64,000 bases of DNA, taken from assembly GCA_011620585.1 (NCBI GenBank), contig WOYV01000039.1:64141-128140 (forward strand), in the 5' to 3' direction. The stretch comes from Draconibacterium sp. (GTDB lineage Bacteria; Bacteroidota; Bacteroidia; Bacteroidales; Prolixibacteraceae). A program made the translations under genes and the position numbers. Position 1 is the stretch's first letter. Every line of letters begins with the position of its first letter. Shown here piece by piece: positions 4,534 through 59,498 of this stretch. The notes under the pieces are model-generated. The model made no database searches and had not been told where the DNA came from. It saw only the letters and a list, made by a program, of their open reading frames with translations.

Positions 4534-5928
4534 ATGTCTAAATACTTTTTATTCTTTCTGGTAAATTTACCAATATTTTTGTTCGCGCAGGGTTATCGCA
4601 TCGAAGTAGAATTGCCCGGACAGGAAAATAAGGATGTTACGCTTGCCTATTATTTTCTCGACAAAATTTATGCTGCCGACACCGTTTCTTTGGATGATAA
4701 AGGAATGGGGGTATTTGAAGGCGATACCCTACTTTCACAAGGCTTGTATAAAATACTGATCGACAAGGATCATCATTTCGATTTTATATTGGGAGCCGAC
4801 CAACAGTTCAAACTCTTTAATGCAACTTCGGATGCCAAAGAGATGAAAATTGAAGGAAGTACCGAAACCAAAGCTTTTGTCGATTACATTGTTTTTCTCG
4901 ATGGTATTAAAAAGCAAGGACAACAACTTGCCGAAGAAATGAAATCGGCCAACGATGAGCAAAAAAAAGAGATGCAGTTGGAAATCGACCGGCTTACTGC
5001 CGAAATGAAAGCTTACTGGGAGAAAGTTGGAGAAGAACTACCAGGGTCGTTTCTGTACCGTTTCCTGGTAGCGAACGAAGTGCCCCAACTCAACATCGGC
5101 ACTTTACCCGAAGAGATACAAAAGAACGACACGCTGCTGCTGAATGCCCGCTTCCAATATCAAAAAAAACATTATTGGGATAATTTCGATTATACCGACG
5201 AACGCTTTTTATACACGCCTCTTTACAAACCCAAACTCGAAACATGGTTCAAAAATGTATTATTCCCTGCGTACGATTCGGTTAAACCTTATGTGTACGA
5301 ATTTCTGGACAATGTGGAAGACAACCCTCGTATTTTCCAGTTTGCCACATCTTTTTTTCTGAATAGCAGTTTACAAAGCAATATAATGGGCATGGATGCC
5401 CTGTTTGTTGATTTAGCCAACGACTACTACCGAACCGGGAAAGCATTCTGGGTGAATCAGGAAACTATGAAAAAGATCCAGGAGAATGTGATCTTCATCA
5501 AGGATAACCTGATTGGGAATACTGCACCCGACCTTCTGCTTGAGACCATTGACGGCGAATTTGTCGATCTTCACCAGGTTGATGCTGAACTTACCGTAAT
5601 ACTGATTTACGAGCCCAACTGCGGACATTGCAAAACTTTTGTGCCACCTTTTTATAAAGATGTTTACGAGCAATACAAAAATAAAGGCCTGGAGGTTTTT
5701 GCTATTTATTCGATGGATAAAAAAGACGAATGGGAAGAATTTTTGAATGAGCACAATTTACACGACTGGATCAACGTATGGGACCCGAATAACGAAAGCA
5801 GATTCAAAATTTTATACGACGCCCGGACCACCCCTGCAGTATATGTTTTAGATCACGACAAAAAGATTATTGCAAAAAAACTGGATCTCGAACAAATGAA
5901 GAAACTGATCGCCGAGAGATTGTATTAA
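4534..5928 (+). CDS. Periplasmic TlpA/ResA-type thioredoxin-like protein with DUF4369-like N-terminus
   Basis: 464 residues. Signal peptide MSKYFLFFLVNLPIFLFAQ; then a beta-rich domain typical of DUF4369 (residues about 20-115, GYRIEVELPG through IEGSTETKAF), a charged helical linker (about 120-175, possible coiled coil) and a middle DUF5106-like region. The C-terminal thioredoxin fold starts near 330 (LIGNTAPDLLL) and carries the redox motif CGHC (C363, C366) and a cis-proline segment TTPAVY. Such proteins reduce or isomerise disulfides in the periplasm of Bacteroidota, often for cytochrome maturation or nutrient systems. It is monocistronic here, so the partner is unknown. Confidence 0.85.
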   Translation: MSKYFLFFLVNLPIFLFAQGYRIEVELPGQENKDVTLAYYFLDKIYAADTVSLDDKGMGVFEGDTLLSQGLYKILIDKDHHFDFILGADQQFKLFNATSDAKEMKIEGSTETKAFVDYIVFLDGIKKQGQQLAEEMKSANDEQKKEMQLEIDRLTAEMKAYWEKVGEELPGSFLYRFLVANEVPQLNIGTLPEEIQKNDTLLLNARFQYQKKHYWDNFDYTDERFLYTPLYKPKLETWFKNVLFPAYDSVKPYVYEFLDNVEDNPRIFQFATSFFLNSSLQSNIMGMDALFVDLANDYYRTGKAFWVNQETMKKIQENVIFIKDNLIGNTAPDLLLETIDGEFVDLHQVDAELTVILIYEPNCGHCKTFVPPFYKDVYEQYKNKGLEVFAIYSMDKKDEWEEFLNEHNLHDWINVWDPNNESRFKILYDARTTPAVYVLDHDKKIIAKKLDLEQMKKLIAERLY

Positions 5929-42648: not shown

Positions 42649-43968
42649 ATGCTGCAACACTTTATTCAAAATATCGCGAATCAAAAACTGATTGAAGCAG
42701 GGCAGCGTGTGTTGCTGGCAGTTAGCGGCGGAATCGACAGCATGGCGCTTCTGCATCTTTTCGAACGCTCGGGCTTTGAATACGGCGTGGTACACTGTAA
42801 CTTTCATTTGCGTGGCAAAGAATCGGATGGCGACGAGGACTTTGTACGCGAACAGGTGGAACAACATGGTATTCCGTCGTTTTTTAAAGACTTTGAAACC
42901 GAAGAGTTTGCCCGTCTGCGAGGAATCTCAATAGAAATGGCTGCCCGCGAGCTTCGTTACGAATATTTTGAAAAGATCAGGCAGGAACAAGGTTTCGACC
43001 TTATTGCCACAGCTCACCATCAAGACGACCTGATCGAAACTTTTTTCCTGAATCTTTCGCGCAAAACAGGTATCCACGGATTAACCGGAATCAAAGACAA
43101 AGCCGGACACTTGATCAGGCCGTTATTATTTGCCGACAGGGAAGAAATAGAAAAATACGCCAAAGGACATTTTATCGAATTTCGCGAAGATTCAAGCAAT
43201 AACGAAGTGGTTTTCCAGCGGAATTTTCTAAGACATAAAATTCTTCCGCTTTTTTCTGAAATGAATCCTGCGTTTAAAAAGAATGTTCTGGCAGGTATTT
43301 CCAATTTGAAAGAAGCCGAATTGGTGTATGATTATTTTATCCACGGCGAATTGAATAAACTGGTGATGAAGGAGAAGAACGAAGTTCGGATCGATATCCA
43401 ACAACTCCGCAGTACACAATTTCCTCAATTAATCTTGTTCGAGGCCCTGGCTGAATATCATTTCAATTCAATAGTCGTTGATGAGATTTACAAAAGCCTG
43501 GATGCCGAATCGGGCCGCCAGTTTTATTCATCGACTCACCGGATGGTAAAAGACCGCGAATATCTTTTTGTATCTGAACTCAGCAAAGGGGAGGAGAAAA
43601 TGTACTATATCGAGGAGAACGACATGGAACTTTTCGAACCCTTTGATATTAGTATCGAAAAACTTGATATAACCGATTTTAAGATGATCAAAGACCGGCG
43701 TGTAGCCTGTATTGATGCCGATGAAATCGCGTTTCCGCTTTTGATCAGAAAATGGCAGGCCGGCGATTATTTTCAACCGCTGGGTATGCAGGGGATGAAA
43801 AAGGTAAGTGATTTTTTTATCGATCAGAAAATTCCTCTTCACGAAAAAGAAAATACCTGGCTTTTGTGCAGCGGCAAAAAAATAGTGTGGATAATGGGGC
43901 AACGGCTCGACGAGCGCTCTAAAATTACCCCTCAAACTCAGCACGTGTTAAAGATTGAAATTTGCTGA
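42649..43968 (+). CDS. tilS: tRNA(Ile)-lysidine synthase
   Basis: 439 residues. The PP-loop ATP pyrophosphatase motif LLAVSGGIDSMALLHL is at 22-37; the TilS signature AARELRYEYFE (about 103) and ATAHHQDDLIETFFLNLSR (about 123-141) follow, and the C-terminal TilS_C domain has KWQAGDYFQPLGMQGMKKVSDFFIDQKIP. It converts C34 of the CAU-anticodon tRNA-Ile to lysidine, which makes it an AUA-specific tRNA; the gene is essential in most bacteria. It starts 35 bases after pepT and may be co-transcribed with it. Confidence 0.95.
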   Translation: MLQHFIQNIANQKLIEAGQRVLLAVSGGIDSMALLHLFERSGFEYGVVHCNFHLRGKESDGDEDFVREQVEQHGIPSFFKDFETEEFARLRGISIEMAARELRYEYFEKIRQEQGFDLIATAHHQDDLIETFFLNLSRKTGIHGLTGIKDKAGHLIRPLLFADREEIEKYAKGHFIEFREDSSNNEVVFQRNFLRHKILPLFSEMNPAFKKNVLAGISNLKEAELVYDYFIHGELNKLVMKEKNEVRIDIQQLRSTQFPQLILFEALAEYHFNSIVVDEIYKSLDAESGRQFYSSTHRMVKDREYLFVSELSKGEEKMYYIEENDMELFEPFDISIEKLDITDFKMIKDRRVACIDADEIAFPLLIRKWQAGDYFQPLGMQGMKKVSDFFIDQKIPLHEKENTWLLCSGKKIVWIMGQRLDERSKITPQTQHVLKIEIC

Positions 43969-47941: not shown

Positions 47942-50371
47942 TTATAAATCGGAATACCTGTCGGGTTCCACTTCCTGCATCATCTCATAAACCTCTCTGA
48001 AGAGCCTTTCCACATTGGGTTTCGAGAAATATTCCCCATCAATGCCGTAAGCAGGGCGGTGTTCCATGGCCGGCAGGGTTCGTGGCGCTGTGTCGAGGTA
48101 ATTAAAAGCTTTTTGTTCTTCCAGAACTTTTTGCATCATATAGGCTGTTCCGCCGCCCGGAACGTCTTCGTCCATAAAAATTACCTTGTTGGTTTTCTTT
48201 ACGGATTCGAGGATGAGGTGGTTCACATCAAAAGGCATTAAAGTCTGCACATCGATTACTTCGATCGAAATGCCTTTGTATTTCAGCAAAAGTTCGGCTG
48301 TTTTTATTGCATGGTGTACATTCCATGCGTAAGTGACCACGGTTGCATCGGTACCTTCGCGCATAATTTCGGGAACACCCAACGGCACTTTGTATTCGCC
48401 GTGGTTAACAGGTAGTTTTTCTTTTACGTTATAGCCTTTCAAGGGCTCGATCACCAGTGCCGGGTCATTGCCTTCGAGTAGAGTATTGTAAAATCCTGCG
48501 GCCTGGGTAAGGTTACGTGGTACGCAGAGGTAAACTCCCCGCATCGACCCCAACAACATTTGCATGGGCGAGCCGGCATGCCAGATTCCCTGTAACTGGT
48601 GTCCGCGGGTTCTGACAATCAGCGGGGCAGCCTGTTTTCCACGGGTACGATACTGCATGGTGGCCAGGTCGTCGCTCAGTTGCGATTGTGCATAATTGAG
48701 GTAATCGAGGTATTGGATTTCGGCCATTGGTCGGAACCCGCATAAAGCGAGCCCGATTCCCTGTCCGATAATTGTGGCTTCACGGATTCCGGTGTCTGAC
48801 ACACGATATTCGCCGTATTTCTTCTGCATGTCTTTCATCCCCTGGTTTACGTCGCCCATTTTCCCGGTGTCTTCTCCAAAAGTCACCAGGTTAGGGTATT
48901 TGGCAAACAGTGCGTCGAAGTTTTTATTTACCACTTCCGATCCGTTTACTTCCACAGAATCCTCGTTATATTTTGCAGGAACCGCTTTCACATTTAATGT
49001 GGAATCAACTCCGGTGCGGTGTAATTCGCTACTGAAAAACGCACGGCTGCGCTTTTCAAATCGGGCGATCCATTCTTTGAGTTCCGTTAATTCGGGTTCC
49101 AGGATCGGTTTATCGTGCATTTCCAGTTTCAGACGTTTAGCAAAACTCAGGTGCGAACGTCGTGTCGGAAATATTTTCTCGGTTACTTTTTCAAAACGTC
49201 GCAAACTTTGCAGATCGCTTTTGCTATCAATGGTTCGCAATATTTTTTTAATATCGTCGCGTTCGGTTTTGAAGCCGTTTGTATAATTATCCCAGGCTTT
49301 TTTTCGTGCTTCCCTGGCTTTGTTTTTTGCTGTTTTTTCCAGTTCAAGCAGCATTTCTTCATCCGCAGTCCCCGAATCCAATAGCCAGTGCCGCATTTGA
49401 TTGATCCCGTCGTATTCCTGTTCCCAGTCGAGACGCTCTTTGCTTTTGTAACGTTCGTGAGACCCCGAAGTGGAGTGTCCCAGGGGTTGGGTAAGCTCGT
49501 TAATATGAAAAAGCACCGGAGTGTGTGTGTTGCGGCAAATTTCGATACCAGTCTTAAAGGTTTGTACCAGGGAGGGGTAATCCCAGCCTTTGCATTTCAG
49601 AATTTTTATTCCATTGCTACCGGCTTCCTGCTCAAAACCTTTTAGTGCTTCCGAAATGCTTGATTTGGTGGTTTGAAGTTCAACTGGGACACTGATTCCA
49701 AAACCATCGTCGTAAACGGCTACTGCCAGTGGTACCTGCATCACTCCGGCGGCATTAATTGTTTCGAAAAATATTCCTTCTGAAGTACTTGCATCGCCAA
49801 TACTTCCAAAAACCACTTCGTTTCCTGTGAGGTTATTTTTTAGATGACGGAGCATTTCGGGGTGCTGCCGGGCAATTTTAGCTCCCTGTGCCAATCCGAG
49901 CATACGTGGCATTTGTCCGGCGGTGGAAGATATATCAGAGGCCGAATTGTATTGTTCAGCCAAATCTTTAATTTCGCCTTCGGGTGTGACATTAGGAGTG
50001 CAAAAGTGATTGTTGAAATTTCGCCCGCCTGTTGAAGGATTGATCTCCTCGTCGGTGTCGCCATAAATCATTGAGAAGAATTCTTCAGGGTTTAACAGCC
50101 CCAAAGCCAGCATAAAAGTCTGATCGCGGTAGTAACCCGACCGCCAGTCGCCTTTTCTAAAGTTTTTGACATAGGCAATTTGAGCCACTTCCTTTCCATC
50201 ACCAAAAATACCAAAGTGTGCCCGCCCGTTATGGACTTCCCGGCGACCGAGGATACTCAATTGACGGCTAAAATAGGCCAGATAATAATCTTCGAGCGCT
50301 TCTTTGGATGTTATTTGGGTTGTGTTTTTTGCTTTTATTTTTTCTGAATACATACTTTTCTTCTCTTTCAT
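47942..50371 (-). CDS. Branched-chain 2-oxo-acid dehydrogenase E1, alpha and beta fused
   Basis: 809 residues. N-terminal half is the E1 alpha: the TPP/Mg motif GSIGDASTSEGIFFETINAA (about 190-209) and the GHSTSGSHERY phosphorylation-loop-like segment (about 297). C-terminal half is the E1 beta: FGEDTGKMGDVNQGMKD, EIQYLDYLNYAQSQL, and transketolase-C VIDVQTLMPFD. The fused form is typical of Bacteroidota. It decarboxylates the oxo-acids of Val, Leu and Ile (or pyruvate) for transfer to an E2 that is not encoded here. Start 50371 (MKEKKSMYSEKIKAKN); an internal ATG at 50353 is equally plausible. Monocistronic. Confidence 0.88.
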   Translation of the reverse strand: MKEKKSMYSEKIKAKNTTQITSKEALEDYYLAYFSRQLSILGRREVHNGRAHFGIFGDGKEVAQIAYVKNFRKGDWRSGYYRDQTFMLALGLLNPEEFFSMIYGDTDEEINPSTGGRNFNNHFCTPNVTPEGEIKDLAEQYNSASDISSTAGQMPRMLGLAQGAKIARQHPEMLRHLKNNLTGNEVVFGSIGDASTSEGIFFETINAAGVMQVPLAVAVYDDGFGISVPVELQTTKSSISEALKGFEQEAGSNGIKILKCKGWDYPSLVQTFKTGIEICRNTHTPVLFHINELTQPLGHSTSGSHERYKSKERLDWEQEYDGINQMRHWLLDSGTADEEMLLELEKTAKNKAREARKKAWDNYTNGFKTERDDIKKILRTIDSKSDLQSLRRFEKVTEKIFPTRRSHLSFAKRLKLEMHDKPILEPELTELKEWIARFEKRSRAFFSSELHRTGVDSTLNVKAVPAKYNEDSVEVNGSEVVNKNFDALFAKYPNLVTFGEDTGKMGDVNQGMKDMQKKYGEYRVSDTGIREATIIGQGIGLALCGFRPMAEIQYLDYLNYAQSQLSDDLATMQYRTRGKQAAPLIVRTRGHQLQGIWHAGSPMQMLLGSMRGVYLCVPRNLTQAAGFYNTLLEGNDPALVIEPLKGYNVKEKLPVNHGEYKVPLGVPEIMREGTDATVVTYAWNVHHAIKTAELLLKYKGISIEVIDVQTLMPFDVNHLILESVKKTNKVIFMDEDVPGGGTAYMMQKVLEEQKAFNYLDTAPRTLPAMEHRPAYGIDGEYFSKPNVERLFREVYEMMQEVEPDRYSDL

Positions 50372-50692: not shown

Positions 50693-51757
50693 TTAATTCT
50701 TTTCAATCCAGTGTGCAATCCAGTCGCCAACAGCAGAGGTCGTTTGTGCCGGGCCTTCGGCAATGTCTTCGGTAACAAAACCTTCTGCCATTGAAGCGGA
50801 AACGGCATCGCGTATTATTTTTCCTTCTTCCATTAAATTGAAAGCATATTCAAACATCATCGCAGCCGAAAGAATCGTAGCAATTGGGTTGGCAATGTTT
50901 TTACCTGCAGCCTGAGGGTAAGATCCGTGGATGGGTTCGAAAACCGACGTGTGGATCCCTACTGATGCCGATGGCAACAACCCAAGCGATCCGGTAATTA
51001 CGCTGGCTTCGTCGGTGAGGATGTCGCCAAACATATTTTCGGTTACCATCACATCAAAGTTTTTCGGCCACTGAATAATCTGCATCGCAGCATTATCCAC
51101 AAACATGTACTCAGTGCGGATGTCGGGGTAATTCGGGGCCATTTCCTGGGCTACTTCACGCCATAAACGCGAACTTTCGAGTACGTTGGCTTTGTCTACT
51201 ACAGTTAGTTTCTTTCTCCTTTTCCCGGCAAATTCGTAGGCCAGTTTCAGAATACGTTCGATTTCTTCGCGGGTGTAAGTGTTTGTATCGAATGCAGTAT
51301 TTCCGTTATCTTTTCTGCCTTTTTCGCCAAAGTAAATGCCTCCGGTTAATTCGCGCAAGCACACAAAATCGGCTCCTTCCACCAGTTCACGGCGAAGTGG
51401 TGATTTGTGCAACAACGATTCGAATGTTTCCACCGGACGAATATTCGCATATAAACCCAATTTTTTACGCATAGCCAGTAAGCCTTGTTCAGGACGAACG
51501 GGAGCTTTTGGATTGTTGTCGAATTTTGGATCGCCAATGGCACCGAAAAGCACTGCATCCGATTTCATGCATAACTCGTGGGTTTCGGGCGGGTAGGGGT
51601 CGCCTACCTGATCGATGGCAGCTGCACCGGTAATTCCATATTCATATTCGAGTTCGTGGTTAAATTTTTTTGCAACGGCTTTCACCGCTTTCATGGCCTG
51701 TTCTACAATCTCAGGCCCGATCCCGTCGCCGGGAAGTACAGCAATGTTGAGTTTCAT
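50693..51757 (-). CDS. leuB: 3-Isopropylmalate dehydrogenase
   Basis: 354 residues. [21 protein letters not shown] at the N-terminus, the substrate-binding [13 protein letters not shown] (about 135), [14 protein letters not shown] and the metal-binding [32 protein letters not shown] (about 225-256). It oxidises and decarboxylates (2R,3S)-3-isopropylmalate with NAD to give 2-oxoisocaproate. The last gene of the leucine operon, 10 bases after the LeuA/CimA-like gene; a LeuB can also process methylmalate if citramalate synthase is present upstream. Confidence 0.95.
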
Positions 51758-51767
51758 TATGGTTTTT

Positions 51768-53351
51768 TTATGATATACTATTTATGATTTTATCGAGAAG
51801 GCCTGGTTTGAACTCATTCTCGATGATGTTTAACATGCGGATGGTTGCTTTGATGGCTGCCGAATTTTGGTCGGGATCGAGCCCCTTGGTTTTGAACTCA
51901 CGATCTGCCTGCCAGGTAATCACCGTTTCTACAAGAGCATCTGTTTTCCCTCCCGGAGGAATGCTCACAACATAATCGACCAGTTTTGGAAAAGATTTAC
52001 CCAGACGTTTGTAAATCTTGCGCAAAGCGCTAACAAAAGCATCGTATTGTCCGTCGCCATCACTGTATTGTTCGTATTCCTTGCCGTCAATTTCAATCGC
52101 GAGGTTAGCCATTGGTCTCAGTCCCATCGTGTAACTAACCGAGAAGTTCACCATGCGAACTTTTTGTTCCATAAAATCATTATCGAGAACATCGGCAACA
52201 ATGTACGGTAGTTCTTCACTGGTGATCGTTTCTTTTTCATCGGCCAGTTCGATGATCCGGTTAGTCACTTTTTTCAAGGATTCTGCGTCGAGATCAATCC
52301 CTAAATCTTCGAGGTTCTTTCTGATGTTGGCTTTACCCGACGTTTTTCCCAGCGCATACTGACGGATACGGCCAAAACGTTCAGGCAACAGTTCGTTAAA
52401 ATAAAGATTGTTTTTGCTGTCGCCATCGGCATGGATGCCGCTGCACTGTGTAAAAACAAATTCACCAATCAGCGGTTTATTGGTCGGGATGCGTATTCCG
52501 GAGAATGATTCAACCAACTTTGAAACCTTGTTCAACTGTTGTTCATTCACATTGGTTTGCATCTTCAGGTGGTCTTTGATTGTGGCGATCACACTTGAAA
52601 GAGGTGCGTTGCCTGCCCGTTCACCAAGTCCGTTTACGGTGGTGTGAATGCAACGAATACCTGCTTTAATCGCATGAAAAACATTGGCGATGGCCAGGTC
52701 GTAATCATTGTGCGCATGAAAATCGAAAATTACATCGGGATAGGTGTTCACCATTTCGCGGCAATATTCGTAGGTTTCGTCAGGGTCCAGAATTCCGAGC
52801 GTGTCGGGAAGCATTATCCTGTCAACCTTTTCATCTTTAAGATTCGAAATCATGAAATGTACATAATCTTTCGAACTACGCATCCCGTTCGACCAGTCTT
52901 CAAGATAGACATTTACCCGGATGCCCATGTTTTCGGCATTGGCAATCACTTTTCGGATATCATCGATATGTTGTTCCGGAGTTTTTCGCAACTGTTCGGT
53001 TACGTGTTTGTACGATCCCTTACACAACAGGTTGATCACTTTTCCGCCTGCATCGGCAATCCATTGCAACGAAATCATCCCATCGACAAAACCTAATACT
53101 TCAATTCTGTCGAGATGACCTTTTTCGGCAGCCCATTTCATTACTTTTTGTGTGCCCCTGAATTCCCCATCGGAAACGCGTGCTGAAGCAATCTCGACCC
53201 GATCAACTTTTACATCTTCGAGCAATACTTTGGCTACACTCAGTTTTTCGCCTTCGCTAAACGAAACCCCGGTGGTTTGTTCACCATCGCGGAGGGTTGT
53301 GTCCATAATCGTCAAGCGTTTTCCTTCCACTTCAACTGTTTTGCCTGTCAT
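51768..53351 (-). CDS. LeuA-family synthase paralogue, candidate citramalate synthase
   Basis: 527 residues. HMGL-like TIM barrel with [38 protein letters not shown] metal ligands, [12 protein letters not shown], and the C-terminal LeuA dimer/allosteric domain (about 390-515). It differs clearly from the canonical LeuA of the same operon (506 residues), so the operon encodes two members of the family. A (R)-citramalate synthase, giving isoleucine from pyruvate and acetyl-CoA through LeuCD and LeuB, is the likely role; a second isopropylmalate synthase is the alternative. Located between leuD and leuB. Confidence 0.75.
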
Positions 53352-53434: not shown

Positions 53435-54046
53435 TTAGCAAGCTTCGAAACGACAGCTCTTATTTTTTTCAAATTCGACAATCTGGCTTTTCATTTCCAC
53501 CAGGTAATCAATATCGTCGAGGCCGTTTTGTAAACAATGTTTTTTGTACGGATTGATTTCGAATTGTTCGCTTTCGTCACCTGCCAGAATGGTGAAAGTC
53601 TGATTTTCTAAATCCACCTCAAATTCGGTATTCGGATCTTTTTCAATCGCATCAAATATCTTTTGAAGAAACCCGGGAGATACAACCACCGGCAACAAAC
53701 CATTATTCAATGCATTGCCTTTAAAGATATCTGCGAAGAAACTTGAAACCACTACCCTGAACCCATAATCATAAATAGCCCAGGCTGCGTGTTCGCGGCT
53801 CGATCCACTTCCAAAGTTCTTTCCTCCAACCAAAATTTTTCCTGAATATTTTGGGTTATTTAAGGGGAAGTCAGTTTTTGGACTTCCGTCTTTTTGGTAA
53901 CGCCAGTCGCGGAACAGGTTGTCGCCAAATCCTTTGCGCTCCACCGCTTTCAGGAAGCGAGCCGGAATAATCTGGTCGGTATCTACATTCTCGATCGGCA
54001 GCGGAACTGCCGGCGTTTTTATTGTTGAAAATTTATCGTATGCCAT
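53435..54046 (-). CDS. leuD: 3-Isopropylmalate dehydratase small subunit
   Basis: 203 residues. Swivel domain of the isopropylmalate isomerase: [32 protein letters not shown] and the substrate-binding [22 protein letters not shown], with the C-terminal helical [21 protein letters not shown]. It pairs with LeuC to interconvert 2- and 3-isopropylmalate. The upstream gap to leuC contains an inserted four-helix-bundle cassette. Confidence 0.96.
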
Positions 54047-54080: not shown

Positions 54081-54470
54081 ATTGATTATTGATTATTTGT
54101 TATTTCGATTTAGAATTGTTTTTCTGGAAGCTATAAATATTGCATTTAATTCCTTGGCTTCTTTTAATATAGGAACGGCGGCTTATTTCGTCGTAATATT
54201 TTCATCCACTGCAAATTCTATCCAGAAATCACATTCATCCGCTTCTTCGATAACTATTGATAATTTTGATGCAAAAGCCAGCTTTGAATGAGCCAATTCT
54301 ACTGCCCTGTAATTAACAGCAACTGAAGTTGCGCTTCTGATTAATTGGCCAGTGATATGATTTTCTAATTTATTGTGAGGCAGTGATGAGGTAAATTTAA
54401 CACAATCATGTGCAAATTTTTTTGTCCTCTTTTTTAAATCGTAGCTGTCCATTTTTAATCAATAATCAAT
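54081..54470. mobile_element. Inverted-repeat-flanked four-helix-bundle cassette in the leu operon
   Basis: Perfect 15-bp inverted repeats ATTGATTATTGATTA (54081-54095) and TAATCAATAATCAAT (54456-54470) bound the four-helix-bundle gene. The right repeat ends 4 bases before the leuC stop and the left repeat starts 35 bases before leuD, so the cassette fills the leuC-leuD gap and nothing more. Intervening sequences in 23S rRNA have the same layout, with complementary ends around an S23-type gene. No transposase is encoded. Confidence 0.6.
54093..54452 (-). pseudogene. Four-helix-bundle (S23/23S-IVS type) protein with in-frame stop
   Basis: From ATG 54452 the frame codes for 89 residues, MDSYDLKKRTKKFAHDCVKF onward with the family signature QLIRSATSVAVNYRAVELAHSK and EEADECDFWIEF. 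It hits TAA at 54185-54183. The same frame continues AAVPILKEAKELNAIFIASRK and closes at 54093, which is exactly the family's missing fourth helix and gives the normal length of about 118 residues. A single nonsense change (perhaps GAA to TAA) therefore truncates it. A stable three-helix product is possible but a pseudogene is likelier. Confidence 0.75.
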
Positions 54471-54474
54471 TGAA

Positions 54475-55875
54475 TTACATCAACTCTCTCGGATCGCTGA
54501 TTACACCGGTAACTGCGGTTGCTGCGGCAGTGAGCGGACTAGCCAGCAAAGTGCGGGCACCCGGTCCCTGGCGGCCTTCAAAATTCCGGTTAGAAGTGGA
54601 TACCGAATATTTACCTTCCGGGATTTTGTCATCGTTCATGGCCAGACAGGCAGAACATCCGGGTTGGCGCAGCTCGAAACCAGCTTCCACCAGAATTTTA
54701 TCTATTCCTTCTGCCTTGATCTGGTTTTCCACAGCTTTTGAACCCGGTACCAGCCACGCTGTAACAGAGCCGGCTTTCTTTTTCCCTTTTACAAAGGCGG
54801 CAAAAGCGCGGAAGTCTTCAATCCGTCCGTTGGTACAGCTGCCCAGAAAAACATAATCTACCGGTTTGCCTTTCATGGTATCGCCTTCGTGATAACCCAT
54901 GTATTGCAACGATTTCAGGTAGGTGGTTTTATCGCTTCCTTCCATGCCTTCGGTGGTTGGGATCGGGCGGGTAACGCCAATTCCCATTCCCGGGTTGGTT
55001 CCGTAGGTAATCATTGGTTCGATATCGGCTGCATCAAAAGTATATTCGGTATCGAATACTGCATCTTTATCCGATTTCAGTTCTTTCCAATTGGCAAGCG
55101 TGGTTTCCCATTCTTCGTCTTTTGGTGCAAACTGACGTCCTTTAACATATTCAAAAGTTGTTTCGTCTGGGGCAATCATCCCACCTCGTGCCCCACTTTC
55201 GATACTTAGGTTACATAAAGTCATCCTTCCTTCCATACTCAGGTTTGTAATTGCAGAACCTGCATATTCGATAAAGTGACCGGTTCCACCGCTGGTTGAT
55301 ATTTTAGAAATGATATACAGGGCGATGTCTTTGGCGGTAACCCCTTTTCCGAGTTCTCCATTGATTGTAACCCGCATTTTTTTTGGTTTTGGCTGCATGA
55401 TGCACTGGCTGGCGAGTACCATCTCCACCTCACTTGTTCCGATGCCGAATGCAATAGCACCAAATGCTCCGTGGGTTGAAGTGTGGCTGTCGCCACAAAC
55501 AATGGTCATTCCCGGTTGGGTTAAACCCATTTCGGGGCCGATGATATGTACCACTCCGTGACCTTCGGTTCCAAGCCCGTGATGAACGATACCGTGCTCA
55601 TGGCAATTCTTTTTAAGCATTTCCACCTGGTGGCGCGAAAGCTCGTCTGTAATCGACAAGTGCTGGTTAATAGTTGGCACGTTGTGGTCGGGTGTGGCTG
55701 TTGTTTTTTCAGGACGGAAAACTTTCAGTCCCCTGGTTTTTAATCCTAAAAAAGCTACCGGGCTGGTTACTTCGTGAATGTAGTGGCGGTCGATGTACAA
55801 TACATTGGGGCCACCTTCCACTTTTTTCACTACATGTGCATCCCAGATTTTATCAAATAATGTTTTTGCTTCCAT
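54475..55875 (-). CDS. leuC: 3-Isopropylmalate dehydratase large subunit
   Basis: 466 residues of the aconitase superfamily. [19 protein letters not shown] at the N-terminus; [25 protein letters not shown] (about 131-155); the three [4Fe-4S] cysteines lie in [14 protein letters not shown] (about 347) and [13 protein letters not shown] (about 407, 410). It forms the isopropylmalate isomerase with LeuD. Second gene of the leucine operon, 119 bases after leuA with a palindromic repeat between them. Confidence 0.97.
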
Positions 55876-55994: not shown

Positions 55995-57515
55995 TTATGC
56001 TTTGGTTAAATAGTTCGATACCGGCAATTTGTTGATCGCATCGAGGAAAGCTTCCACCGAAGCAGTGATTATATCGGTGTGGGCACCAAAACCATGATAA
56101 ATCGAATCTTCGTATTCTACCTGTATGTGAACTTTCCCAATATCGTCGCTGCCACGGGTAATGGCCTGAACCAGAAATTCTTCGATGATTACCTGGCGAT
56201 GAATAATCCGTTTTACTGCTTTAATTGCTGCATCAACCGGACCGTTCCCTGCGGATGTTGCATCGAATTTTTCACCTGCGATATCAAGACAAACGGTTGC
56301 CATTGGTTTCAGGCTTTTGCCAGAAACTACCTGTAGGTAATCCAGTTTTATACGACGTTCTTTTTGAGTTGCATCACCTACCAACAAGGCGATATCATCG
56401 TCGCGAATGTCTTTTTTCTTGTCGGCCAGCTTCAGGAATTCTTCGTACACTTCGTCGAGTTGTTGTTTTTCAAGTTTGAACCCCAACAACTCAAGACGGT
56501 GTTTCAATGCGGCACGTCCACTGCGCGCGGTAAGTAAAATAGCCGATTCGTTGATCCCCACATCGTTTGGATCCATGATCTCATAGTTTTCACGGTTCTT
56601 CAATACGCCGTCCTGGTGGATACCCGATGAGTGGGCGAATGCATTGCGGCCAACCACTGCCTTGTTGGGTTGTACCGGCATGTTCATCAGTGTACTAACC
56701 AACCGGCTGGTACCGAAAATCTTTTGTGTATTTACCCCTGTTTCAATTCCAAGAGCTTTGTAATGCGTTTTCAAGGTCATCACTACTTCTTCAAGCGAAG
56801 TATTCCCTGCGCGCTCGCCGATACCGTTCATGGTAACTTCGGCCTGGCGTGCACCGTTCAGTATCCCGGAAATGGTATTGGCCGTGGCCATTCCCAAATC
56901 GTTGTGGCAGTGGGTTGAAATTACTGCCTTGTGGATATTTGGCACATTGTCGATCAAATATTTGATTTTTGCGCCAAATACATGGGGGAGGGTGTAACCC
57001 GTTGTATCCGGAATGTTCACCACTGTAGCGCCTGCTTTGATAACGGCTTCGATTACGCGAGCGAGGTATTCGTTCTCGGTACGGCCGGCGTCTTCGGCAT
57101 AGAATTCAATGTCTTCCACATATTTTTTAGCGTATTTCACTGCCTCGATCGAGCGCTCGACGATCGCTTCGGGATTTGAGTTTAATTTGTGGTAAATGTG
57201 AAAATCGGATGTTCCGATTCCGGTATGGATACGTCCTTTCTTGGCGTATTTTAGCGATTCGGCAGCCACATCGATGTCTTTTTGAACTGCGCGGGTCAGG
57301 GCACAAATGGTTGGCCATGTCACCGCTTTCGAAATCTCAACTACCGATTCAAAATCGCCGGGGCTCGAAATGGGGAATCCTGCTTCGATCACATCTACCC
57401 CCAATTCCTGTAGCGCCTTGGCAACTTCGATCTTTTCAACTGTGTTCAACTGACAACCGGGGACCTGTTCTCCGTCCCTCAAAGTTGTGTCGAAAATGTA
57501 AAGTCTGTCGCTCAT
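55995..57515 (-). CDS. leuA: 2-Isopropylmalate synthase
   Basis: 506 residues. Barrel motifs [21 protein letters not shown] (9-29), [15 protein letters not shown] (about 200) with metal-binding histidines, and [20 protein letters not shown]; the C-terminal LeuA regulatory domain (about 370-500) holds the leucine feedback site. It condenses 2-oxoisovalerate with acetyl-CoA, the first committed step to leucine. First structural gene of leuA-C-D-(cimA-like)-B, about 70 bases after a leader-peptide attenuator. The start at 57515 ([15 protein letters not shown]) is the only sensible one. Confidence 0.97.
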
Positions 57516-57550
57516 TTTAAATTTATTTTCTGTAATTATTTTTTAGCCAT

Positions 57551-57578
57551 GAGCCCCGAGCTTTGAGCTCTGAGCTTT
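57551..57578. repeat. Four tandem heptamers between attenuator and leuA
   Basis: GAGCCCC, GAGCTTT, GAGCTCT and GAGCTTT follow one another without spacers. They lie between the attenuator U-tract and the leuA start. Likely a small replication-slippage array; no role is evident. Confidence 0.55.
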
Positions 57579-57586
57579 GTTTCATG

Positions 57587-57615
57587 AAAAAAGCCACCCT
57601 CTTTTTGAGAATGGC
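57587..57615 (-). terminator. Attenuator terminator hairpin
   Basis: GCCATTCTC and GAGGGTGGC around a five-base A loop on the minus strand, then TTTTTT. It is the 3:4 structure of the leu attenuator, 72 bases before the leuA start. Confidence 0.75.
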
Positions 57616-57653
57616 TTCCAATATTTCCAATATCCTTTAACAACATACCATTC

Positions 57654-57716
57654 TCAGCCCTGCTTCAGAAGAATGAGAATACCAAGAAGAATAGATATGT
57701 TGATATGTAACTTCAC
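57654..57716 (-). CDS. Leucine-operon leader peptide
   Basis: 20 codons from GTG 57716 to TGA 57656-57654. It reads (M)KLHINIS, then ILLGILILL, then KQG. Eleven of 20 residues are Leu (6) or Ile (5), coded TTA, CTT, CTT, CTC, CTT, CTG and ATC, ATA, ATT, ATT, ATT. A stop codon (TAA) lies directly before the GTG, so GTG is the only usable start in frame. Its role would be to measure supply of charged tRNA-Leu/Ile, not to make a working protein. No homologue is claimed. Confidence 0.72.
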   Translation of the reverse strand: MKLHINISILLGILILLKQG

Positions 57717-57914
57717 TTATTGTTTTACTTACGATTTCCTGCAAATATGAAAATAAATTTCAAAAATGAAAATAAAACAAGCGTTTTTATGAAAAAAATT
57801 AAGATTAATACTACAAACTCCGATTCTGCCGGAATAAAAAGTAAACTTATTCAAATTTACATCGCAGATTCTTCTACTTCGAAATTGCCGGGAACAGTAG
57901 AAAATGTAATGGTT

Positions 57915-59498
57915 TTATTCTTGCCCGCTTGTTTGTGGTGCTTCTGTTGCTACAACCCCGGGAACACGAAAAATATCATCCTTGTTCTTTGGACGCTGAT
58001 CGCCCTGCCACTTGAAGTTTGAGAGGTACCTGTCAGTTTCACTTACATTCAGCAATGGTTTCAGTTCTCCATCGGGTTGTTTCAGGAAAATAATTTTATA
58101 GAATTTCCCGTCTTTAAAACGGATCGAAATATTACTGCTTTCGGCCCGGTTGATCCCGATCACTTCATTTTCTTCGCGTGCGTAATACAGCGTTTGCCCA
58201 TTACCGTCCACATCAATATAATCGAGTTCGCCATTTACCACATAACCGATCATGTTTTTTCCCTTGATTTGGTCGTAGCTCCCCGAGTCTACTTCGGATA
58301 CTATAAAACTGTTCTGGTACATCTTCATTTCGTCGGGGGAGTTGGCATGCTGGTATAATTCGATCCTGTCGGCGCTCAGTTGCTGAAAATCGGACCAAAG
58401 AACGGGTTGATCAAATAATTGAACCAACGAATCTTTGGTGAAATAAGTCAGTGAGTCGCAAATGCCCTGTACATCGGCCCTGAAAAACCGGACACCATAA
58501 TACGCTTTGATAATTTTTTCATCCTGAACCGTATCGGGAAGTGTCCACAATGTGTCGGCGTGCAGGTACAAACTGTCGGTTTCGTTGTATGAAATAAACA
58601 TGGCCGAATCGCTAACCGTGGCTAATTTGGTTTTATCGTTGTAGATAACCTTGTTCCCTTTTACTATGGTTCGGTTCTCGTAATCTTCAATATGCACCTC
58701 GCCCGTGGCTTCGCCATCGCCGTTCTCTTTGTTATATAGTATTTTGCGGGCTTTGATAAACTGAGTGTCGTTGTAAATCGAAGGTGCTTTTTGCAGATCG
58801 GCGGCGCCCGTTTGAGTGTTGTACCAACCGTCCTCGGCATAAAGTGTATTTGCCGAATCCCGGATCGTGGTCGGCCCTTTAAAGTAAATGATCTCGCTGG
58901 TGGTGTTGTATTGTAAATTTTCGCTTTCCAGAGTGTACTTGTCACTATAGCCCACCACATTTTCGGTAAAGTGTGCCAGGTCTTCGTCCATGTAGTATTT
59001 ACCGATCTGGCTGGTGAGGGTGTTGGTGCTGTCAACTATCTTTCCGCCGCATTCGTAATACCCGATATTTTGTTCCATATCGTAATCGAGAGTATCGGTG
59101 TAAACCGTTACTTGCTTGTTCTGAAGTTTTACATCGTGGATTGCCTGGGCGAAACTGCGGTCGCCATCGTAAAAAACCTTGGCGGCATACAAATGCAGTG
59201 TGTCGGCCTGGTTAATGTGTACATGACCGAAAGCATCTACACGGTTGCTCCCTTCGTAGGTGTAGGCGCTGTCGCAATACATCAAAATATTCTCGTGCTG
59301 AATAATTACGTCGCCTATTAAACGTTGTGCATTTGCAATATTTTGAGTCTGGATCAAGTCGTTGGCCTGAAGTATCTCAACTCTTTTCTTTTCCTGTGAT
59401 AAGCCTGAAAAAGTAGAGAACACCAGCATTGTGATCATGACAAGTGCCGGGAATGTGTTGTGGTATATAGCTTTATTGAAACGAAATCCGCGCATCAA
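57915..59498 (-). CDS. OstA-like (LptA/LptD N-terminal fold) periplasmic protein
   Basis: 527 residues. After a basic N-terminus the signal segment FPALVMITMLVFSTFSGLSQ is visible. The mature part is a chain of OstA/LptA beta-jellyroll repeats (RLIGDVIIQHENILMYCDSAYTY, VDAFGHVHINQADTLHLYA, AFGHVHI-like returns every 35-45 residues) up to about residue 440. These proteins usually bridge lipid A/LPS through the periplasm; longer Bacteroidota versions like this have no LptD barrel and are of unknown partner. It overlaps the MoxR gene end by 4 bases, so they are coupled. Confidence 0.82.
   Translation of the reverse strand: MMRGFRFNKAIYHNTFPALVMITMLVFSTFSGLSQEKKRVEILQANDLIQTQNIANAQRLIGDVIIQHENILMYCDSAYTYEGSNRVDAFGHVHINQADTLHLYAAKVFYDGDRSFAQAIHDVKLQNKQVTVYTDTLDYDMEQNIGYYECGGKIVDSTNTLTSQIGKYYMDEDLAHFTENVVGYSDKYTLESENLQYNTTSEIIYFKGPTTIRDSANTLYAEDGWYNTQTGAADLQKAPSIYNDTQFIKARKILYNKENGDGEATGEVHIEDYENRTIVKGNKVIYNDKTKLATVSDSAMFISYNETDSLYLHADTLWTLPDTVQDEKIIKAYYGVRFFRADVQGICDSLTYFTKDSLVQLFDQPVLWSDFQQLSADRIELYQHANSPDEMKMYQNSFIVSEVDSGSYDQIKGKNMIGYVVNGELDYIDVDGNGQTLYYAREENEVIGINRAESSNISIRFKDGKFYKIIFLKQPDGELKPLLNVSETDRYLSNFKWQGDQRPKNKDDIFRVPGVVATEAPQTSGQE

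Follow-up and report, generated by a model that had tools for sequence, protein, structure and literature searches.

In the leu leader of Escherichia coli (leuL) the regulatory codons are for leucine alone, and in the enterobacterial ilvGMEDA and ilvB leaders several branched-chain amino acids are read by one leader. Bacteroidota are generally without Shine-Dalgarno sequences and Bacteroidales make little use of them; Vitreschak 2004 reportedly mentions Bacteroidetes/Chlorobi. In the accessible portions of the following sources, leu is listed among the attenuated operons (PMC1183508), and a 2010 statement held that, to its authors' knowledge, attenuation was unshown outside Proteobacteria and Actinobacteria save for an atypical case (PMC2965389). 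A Leu-rich attenuator peptide for branched-chain synthesis appears in the accessible text on Staphylococcus aureus (PMC5794164); like the element described here it represents attenuation outside Proteobacteria, but it belongs to Bacillota and acts beside CodY. For F. psychrophilum, the part of PMC9723704 available to us gives strong indications that leader peptides attenuate amino-acid operons, and states a general absence of Shine-Dalgarno sequences; phylum and type of operon (amino-acid biosynthesis) are those of our locus, but the order is another, and neither the individual operons nor the codons are specified in that part. Partial texts also mention sORFs resembling leader peptides in Bacteroides thetaiotaomicron (PMC7366714) and Bacteroid-trp (Rfam RF01692), a cis-regulatory leader in Bacteroidota (PMC2864571, Table 1).

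Bacteroid-trp shares with our element its phylum and its nature as a cis-regulatory leader, and differs in the amino acid. Matches to it were present in 4 of 12 genomes (G416, G466, G348, G038), three over the cut-off, and all four hold a Trp-rich ORF, e.g. MRTILVNTYWWWHSVQLTRS; five tested genomes of the genus studied here gave no match. In the open-licence literature, searched mostly at title level, no paper that we found describes a leu leader with Leu/Ile codons for Bacteroidales or connects one with CimA. The original prediction, made from the DNA alone, knew of no leu leader of this kind described in the phylum, which overstated the novelty given the printed hints for F. psychrophilum and B. 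thetaiotaomicron and the Trp-rich ORFs of Bacteroid-trp. The attenuation mechanism itself is known; the novelty lies in the codon logic, and the interest in the order-wide spread and in the match between codons and pathway.

The locus lies in a 64,000-nt stretch of Draconibacterium sp. DNA, the whole of which we analysed and call the window; its genome (G000) comprises 3.9 Mb in 132 contigs. A 20-codon minus-strand ORF (57654..57716) runs from GTG at 57716-57714 to TGA at 57656-57654 (VKLHINISILLGILILLKQG), is conserved in relatives, and has an in-frame TAA immediately 5' of it. Direct reading gives the peptide M-K-L-H-I-N-I-S-I-L-L-G-I-L-I-L-L-K-Q-G. GTG is a variant start, used by 3 of 105 leaders detected in the survey described below, compared with ATG in 100 and TTG in 2. 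The identical peptide occurs at locus L239, in a record titled Draconibacterium orientale.

The genus provided 22 distinct leaders of 23 codons, the length to which our codon table was confined, and all 22 end in TGA. Changes in their I/L columns are mostly synonymous or Ile-Leu swaps: the residue is constant at codons 7, 8, 15, 18 and 19, with synonymous changes at 7, 8, 18 and 19, and codons 9, 12-14 and 17 alternate between Ile and Leu. One-off substitutions of another kind put F at codon 5, F at codon 10 and V at codon 16. The peptide is conserved as codons, through synonymous and Ile-Leu changes within the run. CTA makes up 22% of Leu codons in genus leaders and 30% in other leaders, compared with 4% in nine window genes; for CTT the shares are 51%, 23% and 14%, and ATT accounts for 75-78% of leader Ile codons.

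Four segments on the minus strand can form three competing pairings. Segment 1, the protector arm (57686..57702), lies under codons 5-11 (I-N-I-S-I-L-L), and segment 2 (57641..57656) has the leader stop as its first triplet. Their 1:2 pairing joins CAACATA (57702-57696) with TATGTTG (57647-57641) and CTATTCTTC (57694-57686) with GAGAATGG. Segment 3, the antiterminator 3' arm (57606..57615), overlaps the terminator 5' arm, and the 2:3 pairing sets TGAGAATGG(T) against (G)CCATTCTCA at 57615-57606, with nine Watson-Crick pairs and one G-U. Segment 4, the terminator 3' arm (57591..57601), completes the 3:4 hairpin, whose arms span 57617-57607 and 57601-57591 and lead into the U6 tract of an intrinsic terminator (57587..57592). 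Between terminator and leuA, the spacer at 57520-57585 contains imperfect short repeats, recognised by eye, which also occur at loci L025, L026, L028 and L008 and vary in sequence and length between close relatives.

These readings bear out most of the anatomy in the original prediction: the 20-codon Ile/Leu peptide before leuA, its GTG start, the three pairings with six T after the terminator, and a segment 2 that opens with the stop codon. The 2:3 helix, given there as 8 bp, exists but is slightly longer, and segment 1, placed under the Ile/Leu codons, does overlap the run but only its early part. Folding had been suggested as a check: folds with a masked ribosome do switch (below), and isolated 1:2 and 2:3 pieces are no better than shuffles. 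The 54-nt terminator piece had a folding z of -4.1 (equalled by 0 of 200 shuffles) and the whole leader -2.7 (1 of 200), whereas the isolated, truncated 1:2 and 2:3 pieces were not unusual in stability (z 0.63 and 0.12). Because these last values lie near 0, the two pairings are not provable by folding this single sequence; their isolated energies were not used as evidence, and the proof comes from conservation.

Compared with enterobacterial leuL, the element has the same peptide of regulatory codons, the same stop by segment 2, the same 1:2/2:3/3:4 logic with a terminator before leuA, and a similar shift towards rare Leu codons (CTA). It differs in carrying both Leu and Ile codons, in having no Rfam match, in the CimA-like gene of its operon, and in a host phylum generally without Shine-Dalgarno sequences.

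We searched for LeuA in 61 relatives (51 matches), 118 family genomes (115), 198 phylum genomes (81) and two sets of order genomes (77 matches in 198 and 160 in 392), and took upstream DNA from 207 chosen loci; one, L075, was dropped as it had no upstream DNA. Our detector required three features, namely a leader in which 6 of 10 codons are for I or L, an intrinsic terminator and a helix joining segments 2 and 3; it passed 33/34 loci of the genus, 24/39 from other genera of the family and 33/73 from other Bacteroidales families. Two further in-order batches gave 9/20 and 6/20, for an in-order total of 105 of 186 loci in 26 families; two of these 105 (L089, L219) are wrong ORF picks. Before leuA in other orders or classes, 0 of 20 loci passed. 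A set of named loci, partly overlapping the first, yielded 34 of 80, including Bacteroides gallinarum and Phocaeicola plebeius. No dinucleotide shuffle passed (0/3,320), reverse complements did so in 2 of 166 cases, and eleven other residue sets applied to the same DNA gave 0-2 passes per group.

Among 20 misses that we viewed, leuA stood just after a probable ilvC in ten, and at least four (L098, L103, L107, L117) had a leader-like ORF and hairpin below threshold. The gene before leuA in those ten, and in G417, G667, G704 and G350, we take to be ilvC from its C-terminus. In 13 of 14 order genomes with no detected leuA leader, ilvD lay 2.4-4.0 kb upstream on the same strand, and in the fourteenth (G114) on a separate contig; most of these ilvD genes bear a leader themselves. 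Within the genus, locus L027 (G024, 2.2 Mb) had no detectable leader, only a decayed-looking remnant. The comparison with relatives that the original prediction had proposed thus came out in its favour: leader, stop position and pairings recur, and both 2:3 and 1:2 are compensated across families.

Across families, 2:3 and 1:2 alter in sequence yet remain complementary. Because the 2:3 core is almost invariant within the window's own family (alignment of 47 of 55 distinct sequences), its co-variation derives from other families, and we used a test of own against other-family partners instead of a per-pair covariation count. An initial version was biased because it demanded a 2:3 helix for inclusion; there, in 10 of 26 families the family's own partner outscored every other one of the 26, so that arms from different families often fit one another. 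With that demand dropped (110 leaders, 29 families), 2:3 energies were about -14.1 kcal/mol for own and -11.0 for cross-family partners, an advantage that none of 5,000 permutations reached in any of 10 draws. For 1:2, among leaders chosen with 2:3 required, own energies were -14.4 to -15.3 compared with -11.8 to -12.4 for other families (0/5,000 in each of 6 draws), and the advantage also held within the own family (57 leaders, 0/5,000). Examples of 2:3 arms by family are TGAGAATGG/CCATTCTCA, GGAGTGAG/CTCACTCC, GAGAGGG/CCCTCTT and GGTAGTGAGA/TCTTGCTACC, in which some pairs are G-U. Relative to the stop codon, the helix starts at -3 to +3 nt in the 57 family leaders and at -30 to +8 nt in 46 of 48 non-family leaders, the exceptions (+41, +65) being wrong ORF picks.

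To simulate a ribosome we masked 29 nt around the A site, a guessed footprint, in equilibrium folds. In the window, the probability of 2:3 was 0.06 with no ribosome, rose to 0.51 and 0.88 with one at codons 1 and 2, stayed at 0.93-0.98 over codons 3-15, and fell to 0.23 at codon 16, 0.04 at codon 17 and 0.00 from codon 18 to the stop. When segment 4 was included, 3:4 stood at 0.93-0.97 throughout; because it dominates at all ribosome positions, the switch must be kinetic. Over the 105 leaders, mean 2:3 probabilities were 0.38 with no ribosome, 0.90 at the best I/L codon, 0.78 at the mean I/L codon and 0.04 at the stop, and the difference between stall and stop exceeded 0.5 in 93. Ribosome-free values above 0.5 in 42 of 105 leaders indicate that the 1:2 protector is weak in many relatives.

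Judged from these sequence comparisons, the element is very probably a ribosome-mediated transcription attenuator that senses Leu and Ile, as first proposed; its recurrence and its compensated 2:3 and 1:2 pairings support this reading. The transcript would begin about 20-25 nt 5' of the leader ORF. When charged Leu- or Ile-tRNA is scarce, a ribosome would stall in the I/L run and cover segment 1 or its loop, freeing segment 2 to pair with the emerging segment 3; the terminator would then be blocked, and RNA polymerase, presumably coupled to the ribosome, would proceed into leuA-leuC-leuD-cimA-leuB as a response to starvation. With Leu and Ile plentiful, the ribosome would reach UGA and cover segment 2, so that 3:4 terminates, and with no ribosome 1:2 would form and the terminator win. 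Leu would be sensed because LeuABCD synthesise it, and Ile because the CimA-like enzyme with LeuBCD would yield 2-oxobutyrate for isoleucine; Val would not be sensed because none of the enzymes of the leu/cimA operon is needed for it.

The genes downstream follow on the minus strand in the order leuA, leuC, a four-helix-bundle gene, leuD, a CimA-like gene and leuB. Family matches over cut-off identify leuA (2-isopropylmalate synthase, 55995..57515; NF002086, 744.2 bits), leuC (54475..55875; TIGR00170), leuD (53435..54046; TIGR00171) and leuB (50693..51757; TIGR00169), with the four-helix-bundle gene (TIGR02436) at 54183-54452 between leuC and leuD. CimA together with LeuBCD gives 2-oxobutyrate, an isoleucine precursor. 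The cimA-like gene (51768..53351) encodes a probable (R)-citramalate synthase of the Leptospira type: NF042433 is its best family at 673.6 bits, under the cut-off of 950, with the next family at 337.8, and it matches PDB 3ble with an E value of 8.5e-121. The protein is thus nearest to Leptospira citramalate synthase and probably has that activity. Residues that we take to line the pyruvate pocket of Leptospira-type CimA (L81, L104, Y144), roles for which our literature search returned no confirmation, align as L, L and Y between 3ble and the window protein, assuming an inferred 12-residue chain tag. Beyond leuB on the 3' side, 2-oxoacid dehydrogenase E1 alpha and beta families match separate halves of 47945-50371, a fusion.

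Leaders of the order differ in codon class by operon: Leu and Ile before leuA-leuC-leuD-cimA-leuB, with Val added before ilvD, and His before hisG. Leu leaders hold Leu and Ile with little Val, and Val codons join them in the leader of the ilv operon from the same genome. Across the order, 17 of the 18 ilv leaders detected contain at least two Val codons, compared with 8 of 103 leu leaders. In this the order's ilvD leaders, with Val, Ile and Leu, resemble the enterobacterial ilvGMEDA and ilvB leaders, whereas the window's leu leader mostly omits Val. Before ilvD, 18 of 21 order loci passed the detector; of the others, L182 was unreadable at a contig end, L187 had a clear leader that the detector missed, and L186 had none that we found. 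Outside the order 4 of 8 ilvD loci passed; G221 and G256 are clear cases, and we consider G279 and G327, at distances of 339 and 353 nt, doubtful. The clear two (L194, L195), from another order of the class, have Leu/Ile-rich leaders with a terminator. Before hisG, 12 of 16 loci passed with His leaders, three more had His-rich ORFs and one had none. The window genome has a second branched-chain attenuator before ilvD (L178; G000:C65, ilvD at 42721; leader MKVTNNILVLVVVILGNTEKG) and a His leader with terminator and 2:3 helix (L329; G000:C81, hisG at 4573; MINRLAHHGHHGINQPTGRL). With His, ilv and trp leaders found too, attenuation looks general in the order.

We searched for the cimA-like gene in 221 distinct genomes (sets of 65, 80 and 78, two genomes twice) at E cut-offs of 1e-30, 1e-60 and 1e-100, and 22 of them, drafts that may have gaps, were without an orthologue-like match. 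For the Ile count, leaders were chosen by Leu codons only. Among cimA-bearing genomes, each contributing one leader, 100 of 103 leaders had at least two Ile codons (means 4.9 Ile, 5.2 Leu, 0.4 Val); below that were L136 and two leaders judged wrong ORF picks (L211, L237). Among cimA-less genomes, 4 of 21 loci had a leader accompanied by both terminator and 2:3 helix, and these leaders (MAQVRSLSLRLLQDFSR, MNTTLLSLSLTSGLTLSK, MQAMNNLNMYLFLLLDLCKGREVGI, MNTKSTSISVSLYLLGLLLQRKYRGGDYL) contained 0, 0, 1 and 1 Ile, the single Ile lying outside the Leu cluster. The association gives a Fisher p of 7e-6 with kinship ignored, on four genomes in two clades, f65 (G343) and f9 (G044, G518, G581). The other 17 loci cannot vote because they had no detectable leader. 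Within f65, Ile codons are present in the leader of G588, which bears cimA, but that leader fails the terminator test, and in G527 and G686 a leader was not seen before leuA.

Four further cimA-less genomes, G405, G490 and G560 (family f127) and G046, carry Leu-containing ORFs before leuA that also include Ile, e.g. MLIALANILNRRFLLL in G405; they were excluded from the Ile count because no terminator stands between ORF and leuA. Long Leu runs (LLLALLLLLLSNLLLLLL) precede leuA at L221 and L145 (G560 and G490) with no recognised terminator, and may reflect a different type of control by a leader. G431 showed no leader. Threonine dehydratase (TIGR01127, E up to 1e-20) was found in 13 of 14 cimA-less and 7 of 14 cimA-bearing genomes, although only 5 of the 28 reached the family cut-off and the match in G649 was weak; the window's genus and f65 have both this enzyme and cimA. 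The cimA-less leader genomes thus very likely make isoleucine from threonine. The original suggestion that the Ile codons reflect the CimA-like gene is favoured by these counts, with at most one Ile in 4/4 cimA-less leaders against at least two in 100/103 others, the former from two clades. We consider it probable that the codons of Bacteroidales branched-chain leaders record the amino acids served by the downstream operon: Leu and Ile before leu operons of genomes that encode citramalate synthase, little besides Leu in two clades without the enzyme, and Leu, Ile and Val before ilv operons.

Other explanations of the hairpin were weighed against attenuation. It might serve merely as the 3' terminator for the LptA-like gene upstream (57915-59498), with the short ORF fortuitous, as this gene lies on the same strand and its end is some 300 nt from the hairpin; we hold this to be very improbable, since leader ORF, stop position and 2:3 pairing accompany the hairpin across 26 families while the upstream neighbour changes (a crude ORF-length test on the 105 cases gave 20 divergent and 32 codirectional neighbours, 36 cases with no long ORF, 14 unclear and 3 too short). 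A promoter-like box also sits between the LptA-like gene and the leader. This candidate promoter, a -7 box (CATATTTG, 57742..57749, minus strand), matches five of the six defined positions of TAnnTTTG, missing the first consensus base; that motif is the sigma-A consensus in the accessible part of PMC9723704, and a transcript from the box would begin a few nt downstream. A TTG at the usual -33 spacing from it was looked for and is absent. Boxes with five or six matches occur in the 60 nt before 101 of 105 leaders and 63 of 105 shuffled stretches, with the best box 25-34 nt 5' of the start codon in 64. Between terminator and leuA the sole five-match box is at 57525-57518, from which transcription would begin inside leuA. 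Translational coupling or re-initiation on leuA as the main function of the ORF, a mode proposed for leader genes near structural genes in the available part of PMC4833913, is equally improbable in our judgement, because 138 nt separate the leader stop from the leuA start in the window (75-356 nt across the 105 leaders), and the terminator lies in between. A T-box, riboswitch or RNA-binding protein reading the leader would account only for its being structured, and is scarcely credible: peptide conservation at the codon level argues against it, and no Rfam family reached its gathering score in the window or six related loci, including the leader families (Leu, Phe, His, Trp, others), with no T-box covariance match in the window. 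With E relaxed to 10, Phe_leader was the sole leader-type match (18.3 bits against a cut-off of 55), and a PyrR site scored 15.9 against 54.

If attenuation is accepted, it could still be that leucine alone is sensed and that Ile codons are present because ATT, pyrimidine-rich like CTT, lets segment 1 pair with segment 2. The overlap of segment 1 with the run and its co-variation with segment 2, the Ile-Leu interchange in the genus and the prevalence of ATT all fit this idea. We nevertheless regard it as unlikely, as Ile is almost gone in the two clades without the CimA-like gene even though terminator and 2:3 are retained there, and Val is added in leaders before ilvD.

The leaders described here display the classical attenuation logic in leucine, isoleucine, valine and histidine operons across a large order to which Bacteroides and Prevotella belong. 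The presence or absence of a codon class together with the gene making that amino acid would amount to a natural experiment, and, if the reading is true, leader codons could serve as a genomic readout of which pathways are used. Bacteroidales would then have to coordinate ribosome and polymerase closely on his, ilv, leu and trp leaders, which would offer a testable case for such coordination in Bacteroidota.
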